Assembly (NCBI GenBank): GCA_025056255.1
Contig: JANWVT010000021.1
Coordinates: 1 to 41,534, forward strand
From: Bernardetiaceae bacterium
Lineage (GTDB): Bacteria > Bacteroidota > Bacteroidia > Cytophagales > Thermoflexibacteraceae
DNA length: 41,534 nucleotides
Direction: 5' to 3'
The notes beneath the pieces are model-generated. The model ran no database searches and was not told the DNA's origin. It saw nothing but the letters and a program-made list of their open reading frames with translations. This document shows positions 1 through 5,916 of this stretch, one piece after another. A program made the position numbers and the translations under genes. Each line of letters opens with the position of its first letter. The stretch's first letter is position 1.

Positions 1-3000
1 GGCAAAGGACGCACCAGTCCCAAAGCAATGTCTGCGGGTCCGCTGATAACTCGGAAATCAACCCTGCCACAAGGCATGGAGGCTACAAGGGGCTGTCCTG
101 CTGTGTTCCACTGTACATCGGCAAGCGGGTCGAAGGCGATGCTGCCACAGGGAGCGGGAAAGACGTTGAAGCAGACTTGTGCGCGGCTGTTAGTGCCTGA
201 CTGACCAAAGAAGGTGAAGCAGACTCTGCCCGCACCCATGATGCGGTAGCCTTGGAACTGTCCCAGCGTGAAAATAGGCTCCACAGGACCGGAGAAGGTG
301 CGCGTAGCAGGCTGTCCGTTGAGCAAAAGCATCTGCGGGTTGATGATTTCTCCTGCGGGGTTGAAGACGCGGTCAGGCAGTACAGGCAGCGTGCTCATGT
401 TCAAAGGAGAAGGCGGAGGCAAAATCGGTGGCGGCGGTACAGGATTAATGACTGTCAAGGTGTAGTTCTTAGTTGCTGTACAGCCGTTGCCTGTTACCTG
501 AACGGTAAAGCTAAATGTACCAGCACTTGGAGGCGTACCGCTTAATACGCCACCAGAGGAGATGCTTAACCAACTGGGCAAACCAGCGCCTGACCATGTA
601 ACCGGACCTGGCAGAGGAGATTGGGTTAGCGATTGGGTATATAAAGTACTTACTGTGCCATTGGGCAAGCTGGCAGGCAAAATGTTTACTATCGCAGGGC
701 AATTAATCACCACCGTGTAGCTCTGAGTAGCCGAGCAGCCGCCCCCAGAAACTTGGATGGTGAAGTTGTAGGTGCCAGCCGCAGTAGGAGTGCCCGAGAT
801 AACTCCCGTGCTGCTGTTCAAGCTCAACCCCGATGGCAAACTGCCCGAAGACACCGTCCATGTCGGCGTGCCCGTCAAGCCTGTCTGGGTCAAGGTTTGG
901 CTGTATGAACTGCCCACCGTGCCGTTGGGCAAACTGGTAGGATTGATGGTGATAGTAGGGCAAGTGGCATTCCCCTGAATGATAAAATTATAAGGATTCT
1001 CATCCGCATCATTGTTAGCGATGCTGATTTCCGCTGTATGGGTGCCTAATGCGAGTGGTTGGTATTTCACTACAAAGGTCAAATCTGTTCCGTCAGGATT
1101 AATATGGTTGGCAGCAGGCTGTGCTTGTACAGTAAAATGTGTAGTAGGTGTAACTGTCACTATTGGTGTGCCAGTCAAATTTAGGCGCGCACTGCCTGTA
1201 TTGCGAATGCTGAAAGTGTGGGTTTGAGCATTGCCTAACGTAACTGAGCCAAAGTCAGTATGGTCAGCAGCATTAGGCGTAAGGTCGCCATCGGCTATTT
1301 CAATGCCATTTCCCAGCACTGCTATTTCAGGTTGCAAATTCAGACCGATTAATAGCGGGTCGTGGTCTGAGGAGCGGAACATGTCTGGCTGATAAAAATT
1401 AGCAGGTTTAGCTGTGCTGCCACTCAAATTTTCTGTGTTATAATCAAACTCTTCAGGCTCATCGGAATTGATGTGCCACTCCACTGCTCCTGTTACAAAC
1501 GGTCTAATAGCAGGAGTAGCCAAAGCATGGTCTAAGTAACCTGCCTGTCCACTGAACACATAAGAATATCCTTTTACAGCGGCAGGGTCTCCGTCAAACT
1601 CGTCTATCAAATCAATATAGCCTGCATTTTTAAGCGTAGTGATGGGGTCTTCCTTGGCATAGGAATTTAAATCACCCATAATGATGATTCGATTGATGCC
1701 AGTGCCAGTAGGGTCTGTTGCAAGATGTGCCAGTAAAGCGTTGGCGGCTGCCACACGGTCGGCGTTAAATGCGCCTTGCCCATCGCCTTGGTCGGCATTG
1801 GCACCTGTTCCTGTACCACTTTTAGATTTAAAGTGATTTACAGAAACGATAAATGTACCACCATTGCTGTTTTGACGGAATGCTTGCGTTAGAGCAGGGC
1901 GTGTGTTAGTGGTGAAAGGATATACGTTGTTCAAAACAGCAGTTGTGCCGATAGGTGTTACAGAAGCAGGCTTATAAATAATAGCCACCTTGATGGCATC
2001 TGTGCCGCAAGCGTTGAGTTGTGAGGTATTAGCATCTACATCTATGAATGTGTAAGTGCCAGCACCCATAGCTGCATTTAAGCCATTTACTAAGTCTTGA
2101 ATGGCACTGGCTGCATCATAACCGTCGTTTTCTACTTCCATTAGCCCCACTACGTCAGCATTCATAGCCGAAAGTTTAGCAATAATTTTATCTCGCTGAC
2201 GCGCAAATTCGGCAGCATTATTAGCTCCACGACAAGTGGTTGCAGCACCCCCAACTCCATTTGTACAGCCGCTGAACGTATTGAAATAATTTAAAATATT
2301 AGCAGCAGCTATTTTAAGTGTTGCTGAAGCACCTACTGAAGGAGGTGTTGCTTGTCGCGGATTGGGCGTGTTATCGAAACTAATGGCGCCTGTTGGGCGA
2401 ATGCGATAATTGCTAAACCCGAAATGCATAATACCTTCCAAATTGGTAATCTGATAGCCATTTCGCACCGGATTAGCAGCATTGATGCCATAGGCAAAAG
2501 GTAATTGATAAACGCCATCTTTTTCATCATCTAAAATAATGCGATTTAAGTCATTAGCAGCTTGCTGTGCATTGGCAGCTGCACCCGGTGCAACTATATT
2601 AGTAGGCTGCATCAAGCGACCATTGGAAAGCACTACCTCTCCTAAGCGAGCTAACTGACGCACATCGCTAACGGTTAGCGTTTGTGGGAAGCGAACCCGC
2701 ATACCTTCAAAACGCTCTAAAAAGGTATTGGAAGGCAGAGGCAAGGTTACATTGACAGTAGCAGGCAGCGGTTGTGCCGTAGCTGTAACGGTAACGGTAG
2801 GCGAACCTGTAATAACTGCCATTCCAAAAGAAGGCGAAGAACTATTTTCTTGTACTGTTCCAGTTACCATTACGCGGTCTCCAACGTTTACCGGCGCATT
2901 AGAAATTACAAAAATACCTTCCGAAGTAGCGGGGTTGGCATCTGCATCTGCATCTTCTTCTTGCAGAAAAAAGCCAGCTACAGTGGCGGAAAAGTTAAAT

Positions 3001-5474
3001 TTCCCTGTTACGATACCTTCCACAGTGGCTACTCCCGGCGTTGCCGACATGCCGCTACCTTGTAGTTCATGGATTTTTTTGAGTCCTTGCAGGGTGATGC
3101 GGTAAGAAGTAGATTTTTGGTGATTGCGGGCAGGCAAATCTTTTGAAATGGTGCTGCCGCCATACCAAATGTTGTCGCCATTGTCTATGAGTAGTTGGAT
3201 AGTCTGCCCCTCCCAAGTAGTCATAGCACCTGAGGGCATACTGATAATTCCTTCGAAGCTGCCCCCTACATTTAAGGAACTCAACAAGTTAGCAAAGCGA
3301 ACAGGTGGGTCAGCGGGATTACCCGACCAGCGATAAAGCTGAAACACACCTGCTCCATCGCTCGAGCCAGCAATAATTAAGCAACCATTAGCATTGCATT
3401 CTATAGAACGGATACCTAATCCACCCAAGTCTAATTCAATAGGTGTGCCGAGTGTAGGTGCGCCCACAAAGCCACCGTTTGCCCATGTTGTAAAATTGAT
3501 AACAGGGGCAATTAGTGCCTTGTTACGAGCAGGGAGCGGAACTTGTGGAGCGCGGAAGCCAATGAATGCCGTAGTGCCATCGGGCGCAATCGTGAAGCCT
3601 TCAATGTTCAGCCCACCTTTGTCTGGGTCTTCGGGAACTTTGCCAGCAGCACCCGAGGCTGTTAAATTATAGCCATTGGCATCGCCCCATGTAAACAAAT
3701 CTGTCCTGAAATTAGCATAGTGGCTTTGATAGGTGATGGTAGCTCCTGCTCCTGTGCCGCTCAGTACAGTGTGAATGATGCGCGAGCGGTTTGGACGCAA
3801 AGCGCCAGAAGAATTATTGCTGTGCGAACCAATCCAATAAATATGATTGCCTGAACGTGCTACTCCTTCAATATCTACTTCACTTGAGCCTGAAAGTGCC
3901 AAAGAACTTGTTAAGTCAAATTTCGCTACTGGCAAACCAGACTGATTGCGGTGATACAAGCGGATAGTTTGGTCTTCATCGTTGGCAGTTAGCATAAAAT
4001 CGTTGTCAATAGCTACTGCTGCTGAAAGGTCGCTTGCATCGGTATGAAAGCGAGCATTGGCAGGCTGCACAGCAGCGGCAGAAGCAGCATAATCAATTAT
4101 GATGGAAGCACTGAGCGAGCCATCGCTCACTGTGAGGGTGATGTTGCTAAAACCTACTCCATTAGGCGTGATGCGAATGTTACGCGTTGTCCCCGTACCG
4201 GTGATGATGATATTACTATTGTTAACAACGGCAGGGTTACTGCTACTTGCTGTAACGGTAAGCCCCGCTGCAGGCGTTTCCGCATCGGCTACTACTATGT
4301 CTATGCCCAATACCGCTGCCGGGTCAGTGGGGTCTGAGGCTACTCCGCTCACAGCAAAGGGCGATGGAATGGTTGCCGCTCCGCCATCTAACAAATCGGT
4401 AGTAGAGGGTGCAAAGGCTATGGTAGGAGCTGTGTTTACACTTGCCGCAATGGTGAAACTAAACACATAATTATCGCCACCTGTGCCATTGCCGTCGCCG
4501 TCTAATTTTTGTCCCGAGCCATTCTCTATATTGTTAGCATGCAGGGTTACAGTAACGGTTTCACCTGCTACAAATGCAGCAGAAGGCGTAATAGTAATGG
4601 TATTTACACCGTTTGCTGCTGTTGCTGGGTAAGAAGTGGAGCCACTTAAAGAGCCAGTTACAGTGATAGCATTGGCAGCTATATTAACCGATTGGTCAAA
4701 ATTAATGACAATGTTTGTACTTGCTGATACGCTTGTTGCGCCATTGGCGGGAGTAGTAGTGCTTACTTGCGGAGGAACTCCTACGGGGCTGCCGCTTACC
4801 GTAAGCATATCAAAGCGCCACGTGCCAGTGGTATTATATGTAGAACTACTGTTTGACGCCTGATAAGCACTTGTAGAAGGCTCAAACTCGGCTACAATCC
4901 GAAAACGGGCATTGGCATTGTTATTCAATGCAGTAACGCCGCTTAAATTAGCTATGCGATTGTTGAACCATGTATCTCCTGCTGTACCTTGAAAAAGCGT
5001 AGGAAAGTCATTCCAAGTAGCGCCTCCATCGGTAGAGTATTGCAACCGTACATGACGCGCTGCTGCATTGCTATGCCGCTGATCCCAGCTCACTTGTATG
5101 TTTTGGTATCCAACAGTACTAACGGCAAACTCAATACCCCTTTGCTTATTACCTGTTCCTTGCGAAGCGAAATTGGTAACATTCCAAGCTGAATTATCAG
5201 TGGCTGCTGGGTCAGTAGAACCTCCATTGACAGTTCCGGAAGCAAATGAAGCGGTTGTGCCTCCTAAAAGGCTAATAGTGCCGCTTCCAATACTGGGGGA
5301 AGTAGTACCAGTAGTGAGATTTCCATCTGGGGGTACAGAATTAAAATTCCATTGCGTAATGATGGTCTGCCCTACCAGTCGATTGGAGGTAGTTAGTAGA
5401 AGCATTCCTAAAAAAAGAAACTTCCACAAAAGTTTCTTGTGGAAGTGTTGCCAGTTGTAGCTGTGTTTTGTCAT
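1..5474 (-). CDS. Giant secreted ExeM/NucH-type extracellular endonuclease (3' end beyond window)
   Basis: Reads open from ATG at 5474 to the left edge, 1824 codons with no stop, so the C-terminus is missing. Residues 1-36 form a signal peptide ending VGQ. Then come an N-terminal beta-rich region, an SbsA-like Ig domain (about 235-335), a cadherin-like stretch (about 340-470), a DUF3616-like module (about 475-770, with DIEG and SHSNN motifs), a YhcR-like OB-fold (about 805-905) and a DNase I-like endonuclease/exonuclease/phosphatase domain (about 1050-1377). That last domain has the expected motifs MEVEND, VNHFKSKSG, MGDLNSY and SDHDPL. A choice-of-anchor-D domain (about 1380-1497) and two putative-Ig repeats beginning LPNGTV follow, then a Pro-rich linker. 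ExeM/NucH relatives are metal-dependent extracellular nucleases; a role in DNA scavenging or biofilm turnover is inferred. A type IX sorting domain may lie beyond the edge. The reading frame was checked at several points. Confidence 0.88.
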   Translation of the reverse strand, partial: MTKHSYNWQHFHKKLLWKFLFLGMLLLTTSNRLVGQTIITQWNFNSVPPDGNLTTGTTSPSIGSGTISLLGGTTASFASGTVNGGSTDPAATDNSAWNVTNFASQGTGNKQRGIEFAVSTVGYQNIQVSWDQRHSNAAARHVRLQYSTDGGATWNDFPTLFQGTAGDTWFNNRIANLSGVTALNNNANARFRIVAEFEPSTSAYQASNSSSTYNTTGTWRFDMLTVSGSPVGVPPQVSTTTPANGATSVSASTNIVINFDQSVNIAANAITVTGSLSGSTSYPATAANGVNTITITPSAAFVAGETVTVTLHANNIENGSGQKLDGDGNGTGGDNYVFSFTIAASVNTAPTIAFAPSTTDLLDGGAATIPSPFAVSGVASDPTDPAAVLGIDIVVADAETPAAGLTVTASSSNPAVVNNSNIIITGTGTTRNIRITPNGVGFSNITLTVSDGSLSASIIIDYAASAAAVQPANARFHTDASDLSAAVAIDNDFMLTANDEDQTIRLYHRNQSGLPVAKFDLTSSLALSGSSEVDIEGVARSGNHIYWIGSHSNNSSGALRPNRSRIIHTVLSGTGAGATITYQSHYANFRTDLFTWGDANGYNLTASGAAGKVPEDPDKGGLNIEGFTIAPDGTTAFIGFRAPQVPLPARNKALIAPVINFTTWANGGFVGAPTLGTPIELDLGGLGIRSIECNANGCLIIAGSSDGAGVFQLYRWSGNPADPPVRFANLLSSLNVGGSFEGIISMPSGAMTTWEGQTIQLLIDNGDNIWYGGSTISKDLPARNHQKSTSYRITLQGLKKIHELQGSGMSATPGVATVEGIVTGKFNFSATVAGFFLQEEDADADANPATSEGIFVISNAPVNVGDRVMVTGTVQENSSSPSFGMAVITGSPTVTVTATAQPLPATVNVTLPLPSNTFLERFEGMRVRFPQTLTVSDVRQLARLGEVVLSNGRLMQPTNIVAPGAAANAQQAANDLNRIILDDEKDGVYQLPFAYGINAANPVRNGYQITNLEGIMHFGFSNYRIRPTGAISFDNTPNPRQATPPSVGASATLKIAAANILNYFNTFSGCTNGVGGAATTCRGANNAAEFARQRDKIIAKLSAMNADVVGLMEVENDGYDAASAIQDLVNGLNAAMGAGTYTFIDVDANTSQLNACGTDAIKVAIIYKPASVTPIGTTAVLNNVYPFTTNTRPALTQAFRQNSNGGTFIVSVNHFKSKSGTGTGANADQGDGQGAFNADRVAAANALLAHLATDPTGTGINRIIIMGDLNSYAKEDPITTLKNAGYIDLIDEFDGDPAAVKGYSYVFSGQAGYLDHALATPAIRPFVTGAVEWHINSDEPEEFDYNTENLSGSTAKPANFYQPDMFRSSDHDPLLIGLNLQPEIAVLGNGIEIADGDLTPNAADHTDFGSVTLGNAQTHTFSIRNTGSARLNLTGTPIVTVTPTTHFTVQAQPAANHINPDGTDLTFVVKYQPLALGTHTAEISIANNDADENPYNFIIQGNATCPTITINPTSLPNGTVGSSYSQTLTQTGLTGTPTWTVSSGSLPSGLSLNSSTGVISGTPTAAGTYNFTIQVSGGGCSATQSYTVVINCPAIVNILPASLPNGTVSTLYTQSLTQSPLPGPVTWSGAGLPSWLSISSGGVLSGTPPSAGTFSFTVQVTGNGCTATKNYTLTVINPVPPPPILPPPSPLNMSTLPVLPDRVFNPAGEIINPQMLLLNGQPATRTFSGPVEPIFTLGQFQGYRIMGAGRVCFTFFGQSGTNSRAQVCFNVFPAPCGSIAFDPLADVQWNTAGQPLVASMPCGRVDFRVISGPADIALGLVRPL

Positions 5475-5916
5475 ACAGTAAAAACTTGATGCATCAACAT
5501 AAAATTTCACGTGCAAAGTTAGGCTGTATGACAAGTCTCAAAACGAAGTGTTGAATTACGTTTTTGTGAAAAATGCTTATGATTTGTTAAGTCTAAGTAG
5601 TTGTTTTGGTTTTTGTAAAGTTCTTCTTGTCAAACTTCATATTTCATGAAGGCAAACTCGCCGTTATTCATGTCCTCATGAACAAGTATTTTCCACTTGT
5701 GAATATATGTGCAACGGCAAAAAGTTGTGTCTTTCCCATTCTGCTATCTTTTGTGGTGTGTGAGGACATAATGTCGTTGATGCACGCTGCTGTTTTTCGT
5801 GTACTTACAAGCAGCCCTGTTGTGAGTAAGTATTGTAGCAAGGTTGTTTTTCAGCTACTCAATCCTGCCATTCTGTCTTAGTCATCGCATTTGCCTCTGT
5901 AAAACCTACATACGCC
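5475..5916. other. Intergenic region, about 440 nt, no supported gene
   Basis: Apart from the nuclease promoter near 5514-5542 I see nothing firm. A 91-codon plus-strand frame at 5606-5881 begins with TTG, has no recognisable domain and no promoter match, and is treated as chance. The beta-propeller gene ends at 5917 without an obvious T-tailed hairpin. Confidence 0.5.
5514..5542 (-). promoter_or_regulatory. Promoter of the nuclease gene
   Basis: On the minus strand TTTG (5539-5542) is followed after 17 nt by TAACTTTG (5514-5521). This matches the Bacteroidota -33/-7 consensus TTTG / TAnnTTTG exactly. It lies 39 nt before the ATG at 5474. Confidence 0.7.

Follow-up and report, generated by a model that had tools for sequence, protein, structure and literature searches.

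Results

A DNase gene with an internal DUF3616 module

The gene described here lies at the left end of a 41,534-nucleotide stretch of DNA from a Bernardetiaceae bacterium (bases 1-41534 of contig C21, from a 107-contig assembly totalling 3.39 Mb), called the window throughout. On the minus strand its reading frame spans 3-5534; from an ATG at 5474 it continues without a stop to the contig end, giving a visible coding sequence of 3-5474 and, as an earlier note on this DNA had counted, 1824 visible residues. Because the contig end cuts the gene and the C-terminus is missing, this size is a lower bound. All features of the gene are on the minus strand. We number residues from the ATG (base 5474); P0001 numbers equal these numbers plus 20. 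The earlier note read the gene as a secreted nuclease with a DUF3616 module inside it, and profile searches recovered both parts.

The DNase occupies 1335-3023. It matches the ExeM/NucH model NF033681 over the full length of the profile (positions 1-546; P0001 838-1400) at 592 bits, compared with a cut-off of 300, and Pfam finds Exo_endo_phos in the same protein at 44.4 bits. On this sequence evidence, the gene is a member of the ExeM/NucH family. It is the one strong ExeM match in the source genome. The residues of the DNase I-like motif (N1059, E1113, H1214, D1268-x-N1270 and D1370-H1371), which have catalytic roles in EEP domains, are invariant in 15/15 ExeM rows. The nuclease consists of a YhcR/OB-type region followed by the DNase I-like EEP domain. 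Pfam did not list the OB-fold named earlier as a domain of its own; its presence is implied by NF033681, which matches over the whole profile. A putative signal peptide (5367-5474) was recognized by eye in the translation, and the product would be a secreted extracellular DNase with extracellular DNA (eDNA) as its substrate.

In the excerpted account of Shewanella oneidensis ExeM (PMC6085458), the protein belongs to a Ca/Mg-dependent nuclease family and has a YhcR-like region, described with two putative OB-folds, and an EEP domain, both regions being essential for DNA degradation. The window gene shares the nuclease family and the motif residues. The S. oneidensis protein has 871 aa and an N-terminal lamin tail domain (LTD), and the same excerpts name no DUF3616. 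Unlike it, the window gene has a Big_5 domain, an Ig-like domain and a propeller before the nuclease, and choice_anch_D and He_PIG domains after it.

The mobile piece is an Ig-like domain plus a propeller

The DUF3616-family propeller lies at 3090-4052. In the window protein PF12275 scored 44.4 bits (cut-off 20.6) in two stretches, the better at P0001 502-574; a search of the source genome aligned only profile positions 1-76 of 327, at 32 bits. Limits of 475-770 proposed earlier for the module were close and are now 475-795. Eight of the 59 genomes searched with PF12275 (the source genome and G054 included) had any match, as did none of 14 control genomes, and six standalone DUF3616 genes from this search scored 372-420 bits. 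Despite the partial Pfam alignment we keep the module in DUF3616, because a profile-profile comparison (hhalign) between the propeller region in 19 related rows and the six standalone DUF3616 sequences covered 273 columns, with a probability of 99.1 and E = 1.9e-18. The module is thus best described, from its sequence, as a divergent, fused branch of the family.

Alignment with the first two relatives showed that homology begins about 100 residues before DUF3616, in an Ig-like domain at 4053-4352. The mobile piece is therefore the Ig-like domain together with the propeller (hereafter the unit, about 416 positions), and not DUF3616 alone; the earlier picture of a DUF3616 insert holds for its place beside the DNase, which recurs in 14/37 copies (see below). 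The limits of the Ig-like half come from alignments A1 and A2 and from a match of the unit hidden Markov model (HMM) at 3096-4352. No Pfam match covers 4053-4352, and "Ig-like" is our reading of its predicted strands. The units are divergent. PF12275 was found at E ≤ 0.001 in 17 of the 33 full units given to Pfam, in one of them under the cut-off (33 of 37 units were scanned, all except L118, L120, L122 and L129), and the units without a PF12275 listing were tied in by the unit HMM.

The Ig-like domain carries the motif VSGVxxDPTDPA, and weaker matches to this part, alone or in tandem, were seen in other giant frames. One of them (G000:C41:172023-172232) lies in a 2130-aa frame of the source genome that has subtilisin-like motifs by eye.

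Predicted fold and conserved residues of the propeller

The best of five AlphaFold2 models of the unit had a predicted local distance difference test (pLDDT) score of 89.3 (range 74.4-89.3), and the best model of the propeller alone had 91.8 (range 86.8-91.8). By Z score, the closest solved folds were glutaminyl cyclases (18.8), Escherichia coli YjiK (17.4) and the human Ca-activated nucleotidase SCAN (the SCAN/apyrase fold, 1s18/2h2u; 16.2, with a root mean square deviation of 3.3 over 225 residues), followed by arabinanase and GH43-type enzymes. Many other propellers match, including six-bladed NHL and paraoxonase propellers. In Foldseek the best match was human SCAN/apyrase, with E = 6.2e-7 for the propeller alone and 3.9e-8 with the Ig-like domain. 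Glutaminyl cyclase, YjiK and SCAN-type propellers have five blades, and from our reading of the model strands this propeller probably does as well.

Four polar residues, S484, E536, E625 and R689, are conserved in 100% of the 19 rows of alignment A2, and E741 in 95%. Each of the five falls within the first three residues of the strand taken as its blade's innermost in the AlphaFold2 model, and the same Ser/Glu/Glu/Arg/Glu order can be seen by eye in the standalone DUF3616 proteins. The invariant positions of the module include many Glu, Asp and Arg. The conserved set looks like a metal-binding or catalytic pore, if the model places these residues correctly. It may resemble the Ca site of SCAN.

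Sequence comparisons gave no link to a solved structure or to a catalytic propeller family. Searches of the PDB with the unit, a standalone DUF3616 and alignment A2 returned E values of 0.08 or worse, or nothing. Neither PF06079 (apyrase) nor PF13449 (Phytase-like) had a match listed in the window protein at E ≤ 1. A Phytase-like profile built from 9 of 10 loci gave an hhalign probability of 6.5 with the propeller, which is no support, and we rejected that candidate; an apyrase-like profile gave 1.4 (4 of 5 loci used, weak sub-cut-off bacterial sequences). Three verrucomicrobial relatives match PF13449 at 25.2-26.0 bits, just under the cut-off of 27.6.

Distribution of the unit

With the window module alone as query, 4/395 Bacteroidota genomes matched (the source genome included, and G259 at only 20 bits). 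An alignment profile of the full unit recovered at least 11 copies in 10/291 Cytophagales genomes (the source genome included), six copies in at least 6/300 Burkholderiales genomes and nine copies in at least 9/244 Cyanobacteria genomes. These genome counts are lower bounds because at most 5 to 7 candidates were scored per genome. The Burkholderiales copy of G816 was matched in two pieces of one frame, and G1033 and G1215 carry identical units. A scan of named loci yielded 20 loci from Bacteroidota, Cyanobacteria, Proteobacteria and Verrucomicrobia. Among plasmids, 26 records matched, 17 of them at ≥80% coverage, representing three lineages (Spirosoma oryzicola, Deinococcus radiodurans and Deinococcus sp. 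KNUC1210). A search of phage sequences gave no match.

For the analyses below we used 37 copies: 11 from Cytophagales, six from Burkholderiales, nine from Cyanobacteria, three plasmid lineages and eight further named loci (L015, L016, L018, L019, L022, L023, L024 and L025). L017, L020, L021 and L013 were excluded as duplicates of counted copies, L013 being the same as L025 by identical blastp rows. Partial matches (the Ig-like part or the propeller alone, standalone DUF3616 and L026-L034) were left uncounted. In L024 (7023-9838, Spirosoma telluris) two overlapping frames each hold part of the unit, which indicates a broken gene or a sequencing error.

Recurrent joining of the unit to ExeM

A unit and a strong ExeM match share one frame in 14 of the 37 copies, with the unit upstream of ExeM in ten and downstream in four. 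The fused set consists of the window gene and one other Cytophagales gene (2/11), five of six Burkholderiales copies, six of nine from Cyanobacteria and one of three plasmid lineages (S. oryzicola); none of the eight other named loci is fused. We called ExeM with our own HMM made from four rows (the window, L020, L036 and L037), each confirmed by NF033681. Weak ExeM matches (38 and 55 bits) were seen in one more cyanobacterial copy. The contexts of L072, L074, L075, L077, L118, L119 and L123 reach contig ends, L072 being clipped on the left as well, so some of the non-fused calls may be due to truncation.

Two fused genes are useful comparisons. L020 (G676), from a betaproteobacterial metagenome-assembled genome (MAG), is colinear with the window gene, at 46% identity over 1462 columns; like four further Burkholderiales genes, it has the unit upstream of ExeM. 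It differs from the window gene in coming from another phylum and in having no choice_anch_D listed. The S. oryzicola plasmid gene LQ777_RS27000, annotated as an ExeM/NucH family extracellular endonuclease, shares ExeM, the unit and He_PIG with the window gene and encodes 2665 aa with a match to a type IX secretion system (T9SS) tail. It differs in having the unit after ExeM, an LTD before the unit and a CBM3 domain after it. The fusion is therefore not unique to the window gene, and no paper on a combination of DUF3616 with a nuclease was found in the literature searched. The earlier note had left room for an arrangement already common and characterised; a near-colinear relative exists, and no published characterisation turned up in that literature.

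The two genes can also lie near each other as separate genes. In D. radiodurans MP1 (L037, 2279-10556), the unit gene DR_RS15785 and the ExeM gene DR_RS15795 are on opposite strands with one gene between them. The intervening gene is annotated as lasso peptide biosynthesis B2 and has nucleotidyltransferase and transglutaminase-like Pfam matches. We infer that DR_RS15795 is DRB0067, because it is the only ExeM match on that megaplasmid; DRB0067 is megaplasmid-borne and, in the excerpted source, the only extracellular nuclease reported for D. radiodurans (PMC3554781).

The unit has other partners as well. LTD was found in 7 of the 11 fused copies scanned with Pfam, and laminin-G-like, CBM3, RTX, Calx-beta and Ig-type domains also occur beside the unit. 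In L025 (6570-10697, Chitinophagaceae) a pectate lyase domain precedes the unit within the same frame.

History of the fusion

A tree of 35 of the 37 units (L024 and G816 were left out) requires at least five changes between fused and not fused, and six among no fusion, unit upstream and unit downstream; each change may be a gain or a loss. With modest support (85/80), the window unit clusters with Saprospiraceae units that are not fused. Placing the window and Burkholderiales units in one clade was not rejected (approximately unbiased test, p-AU 0.084). Given this result and the colinearity with L020, the upstream fusions of the window and Burkholderiales may share one old event. For the downstream fusions of Spirosoma and two Cyanobacteria, one additional joining at the least, or a rearrangement, has to be assumed. 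The ExeM tree has 16 rows; in it the window and D. radiodurans sequences form long branches, and ElainellaExeM fills only 19% of the columns.

Other features of the gene and its surroundings

The first ~200 aa after the signal peptide (4785-5366) form an uncharacterised conserved region. In blastp this region is 58% and 53% identical to the Saprospiraceae LTD-unit proteins L015 and L016, and it also occurs in four of five Burkholderiales fusions (L020, L118, L119 and L120, not L121). A Big_5 Ig-like domain of the SbsA type follows at 4452-4778 (PF13205, 50.2 bits, P0001 253-361). Beyond the DNase are a choice-of-anchor-D domain at 999-1331 (NF012200, 84.9 bits, P0001 1402-1512) and two He_PIG repeats at 702-962 and 447-701 (PF05345, two stretches, 80.1 bits; limits from comparing the repeats). 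The remaining tail (3-446) has no Pfam or NCBIfam match over the cut-off and is cut by the contig end. The SbsA-like Ig domain, DNase I-like nuclease, choice-of-anchor-D domain and two putative-Ig repeats that the earlier note had listed were thus each matched by Pfam or NCBIfam. Its view of the two repeats as recent duplicates did not hold: they are identical at 49/84 residues (58%) and 151/252 bases (60%), so the duplication is old.

Export by the type IX route may apply to the window DNase. Of 28 sorting-domain matches in the source genome, 25 are over the cut-off, and nine unit-bearing proteins have T9SS-tail matches (L015, L016, L036, L069 and L074-L078; that of L069 is under the Pfam cut-off and that of L036 is by NCBIfam only). 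The DNA at the contig start (window 1-300) matches only itself in the genome. A frame near the start of contig C34 with a T9SS tail was considered as the missing C-terminus and rejected, because it encodes a repeat protein and its longest string shared with the window end is 8 bases.

Judged by eye, the neighbouring genes are housekeeping-like, and we found no functional link between them and the DNase gene. They include a profile-supported GH20 gene and genes that we take to encode an LpxH-like phosphatase, a glycosyltransferase, an SppA-like protein and a glycerol kinase. A terminator-like hairpin with a T-run at 5446-5420 (minus strand) lies inside the start of the frame; one was found compared with 0.5 expected by shuffling, and it is perhaps due to chance.

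Discussion

The window gene encodes a DNase of a known kind joined to a chemically uncharacterised propeller, an attachment that recurs. Family membership, the motif residues, the predicted fold and the recurrent fusion were all obtained by computation. What is new, at the level of sequence, is that the Ig-like domain and the propeller move as one unit and are recurrently joined to ExeM, a hint of a possible functional partnership.

We tentatively favor the idea that the protein combines a secreted DNase with a propeller that brings a second activity of its own to bear on the same material. The ExeM/NucH DNase would break down extracellular DNA. The unit, an Ig-like spacer and a DUF3616-family propeller, sits in the N-terminal half here and is joined to the DNase in either order in several lineages. 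The Ser/Glu/Glu/Arg/Glu set at the five strand starts is expected to line the central pore and could form a site for a metal and a phosphate or sugar. The propeller may then hydrolyse or bind DNA breakdown products or a matrix polymer beside the DNase. All of the propeller chemistry is what we infer from these features. A second activity seems to us the most likely role, with a binding role close behind. It is doubtful that the more ambitious version holds, in which DUF3616 would be a propeller enzyme with Ser/Glu/Glu/Arg/Glu as its active site, working in tandem with ExeM on the DNase products or on the DNA-holding matrix, and the fusions would be repeatedly assembled two-step eDNA processors.

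Several observations weigh against a second activity tied to the DNase. The propeller fold is common and by itself shows no function; the Foldseek TM-scores by query were 0.26-0.44 among the 50 matches listed; and no catalytic family can be named, because there is no profile link to Phytase-like or apyrase-like proteins. The six standalone DUF3616 proteins of the relatives have no signal peptide by eye. The link with the DNase is also incomplete. Strong ExeM is absent from the frame in 23/37 units. Of the 16 unit-bearing genomes or records searched (three of the 16 being single plasmids and several MAGs), 12 gave no ExeM match over the cut-off; the model also found matches in six of 14 control genomes, over the cut-off in three. 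LTD occurs in 13 of the 22 Pfam-scanned copies that lack strong ExeM, and pectate lyase in one, so the unit is not DNase-specific. The ExeM HMM was seeded partly by fused rows (the window, L020 and L036), and Exo_endo_phos was found at E ≤ 0.001 in three of seven other fused proteins (L121, under the cut-off, L128 and L130) and was not listed by Pfam at that level in the fused L119, L124, L125 and L127. Finally, the C-terminus of the window protein, and hence its export route, lies beyond the contig.

It is quite possible that the unit is instead a non-catalytic binding or adhesion module, which would tether the enzyme to matrix polysaccharide, the cell surface or DNA in the way of other accessory domains of giant surface proteins. 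The earlier note had guessed at a module that binds a substrate or polymer. The company the unit keeps agrees with this: it also stands beside LTD, laminin-G-like, CBM3, Calx-beta, RTX and Ig repeats and a pectate lyase. LTD is its commonest neighbour, and in the excerpted account S. oneidensis ExeM without LTD degrades DNA almost normally in vivo, with lower activity in vitro (PMC6085458). The abundance of Glu, Asp and Arg at invariant positions speaks against a purely adhesive role, as does the occurrence of the Ser/Glu/Glu/Arg/Glu order in single-domain DUF3616 proteins, which have no partner to anchor. Judged from the conserved polar residues, an enzymatic role would fit about as well as binding.

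We consider it unlikely that the joining reflects passive shuffling, in which Ig, LTD and propeller domains enter and leave giant secreted proteins at random and the co-occurrence with ExeM is meaningless. The partners and their order do vary widely, the Ig-like part recurs alone and, in several frames, in tandem, and most of the unit-bearing genomes and records searched lack ExeM over the cut-off, as noted above. Random exchange does not sit well with the same nuclease family being in frame with five of six Burkholderiales and six of nine cyanobacterial units, in both orders, or with the ExeM gene near the unit gene in D. radiodurans. Least likely is a specific form of the two-activity reading, a Ca-dependent phosphohydrolase akin to SCAN or phytase-like enzymes that would turn the DNase products into nucleosides and phosphate: the top Foldseek match to SCAN, its Z of 16.2, the near-cut-off PF13449 scores of the verrucomicrobial relatives and a possible likeness of the conserved set to the SCAN Ca site favor it, but hhalign to the Phytase-like and apyrase-like profiles fails, glutaminyl cyclase and YjiK rank higher by Z, and GH43/arabinanase-type enzymes are close behind.

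Extracellular DNases have been linked to the formation of biofilms, the recycling of nutrients and the uptake of DNA. For DUF3616 itself, Xanthomonas XAC2848/Bdp7 shares the Pfam family (PF12275) with the window module; it is a standalone protein of 363 aa, whereas the window module is fused and divergent. In the excerpted report of a biofilm-defect screen, the XAC2848 transposon mutant was among 13 with reduced exopolysaccharide and seven with altered lipopolysaccharide (PMC3130047). By analogy, the literature on ExeM and XAC2848 fits a matrix or biofilm setting without proving it. Another bacterial enzyme fused to a Ca-binding propeller is the Cu/Zn superoxide dismutase-beta-propeller lactonase of D. 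radiodurans; its propeller is six-bladed, its enzyme is a different one, and the main text of that paper does not contain the term DUF3616 (PMC12362111).

The finding is more general than a single gene, since the joining of the unit and the DNase recurs across lineages. A DUF3616 propeller that is joined to DNases in several lineages, and that has a clear predicted fold and a conserved polar set, can be tested directly, since its partner suggests which conditions and substrates to use. It also offers a lead on the wider DUF3616 family.

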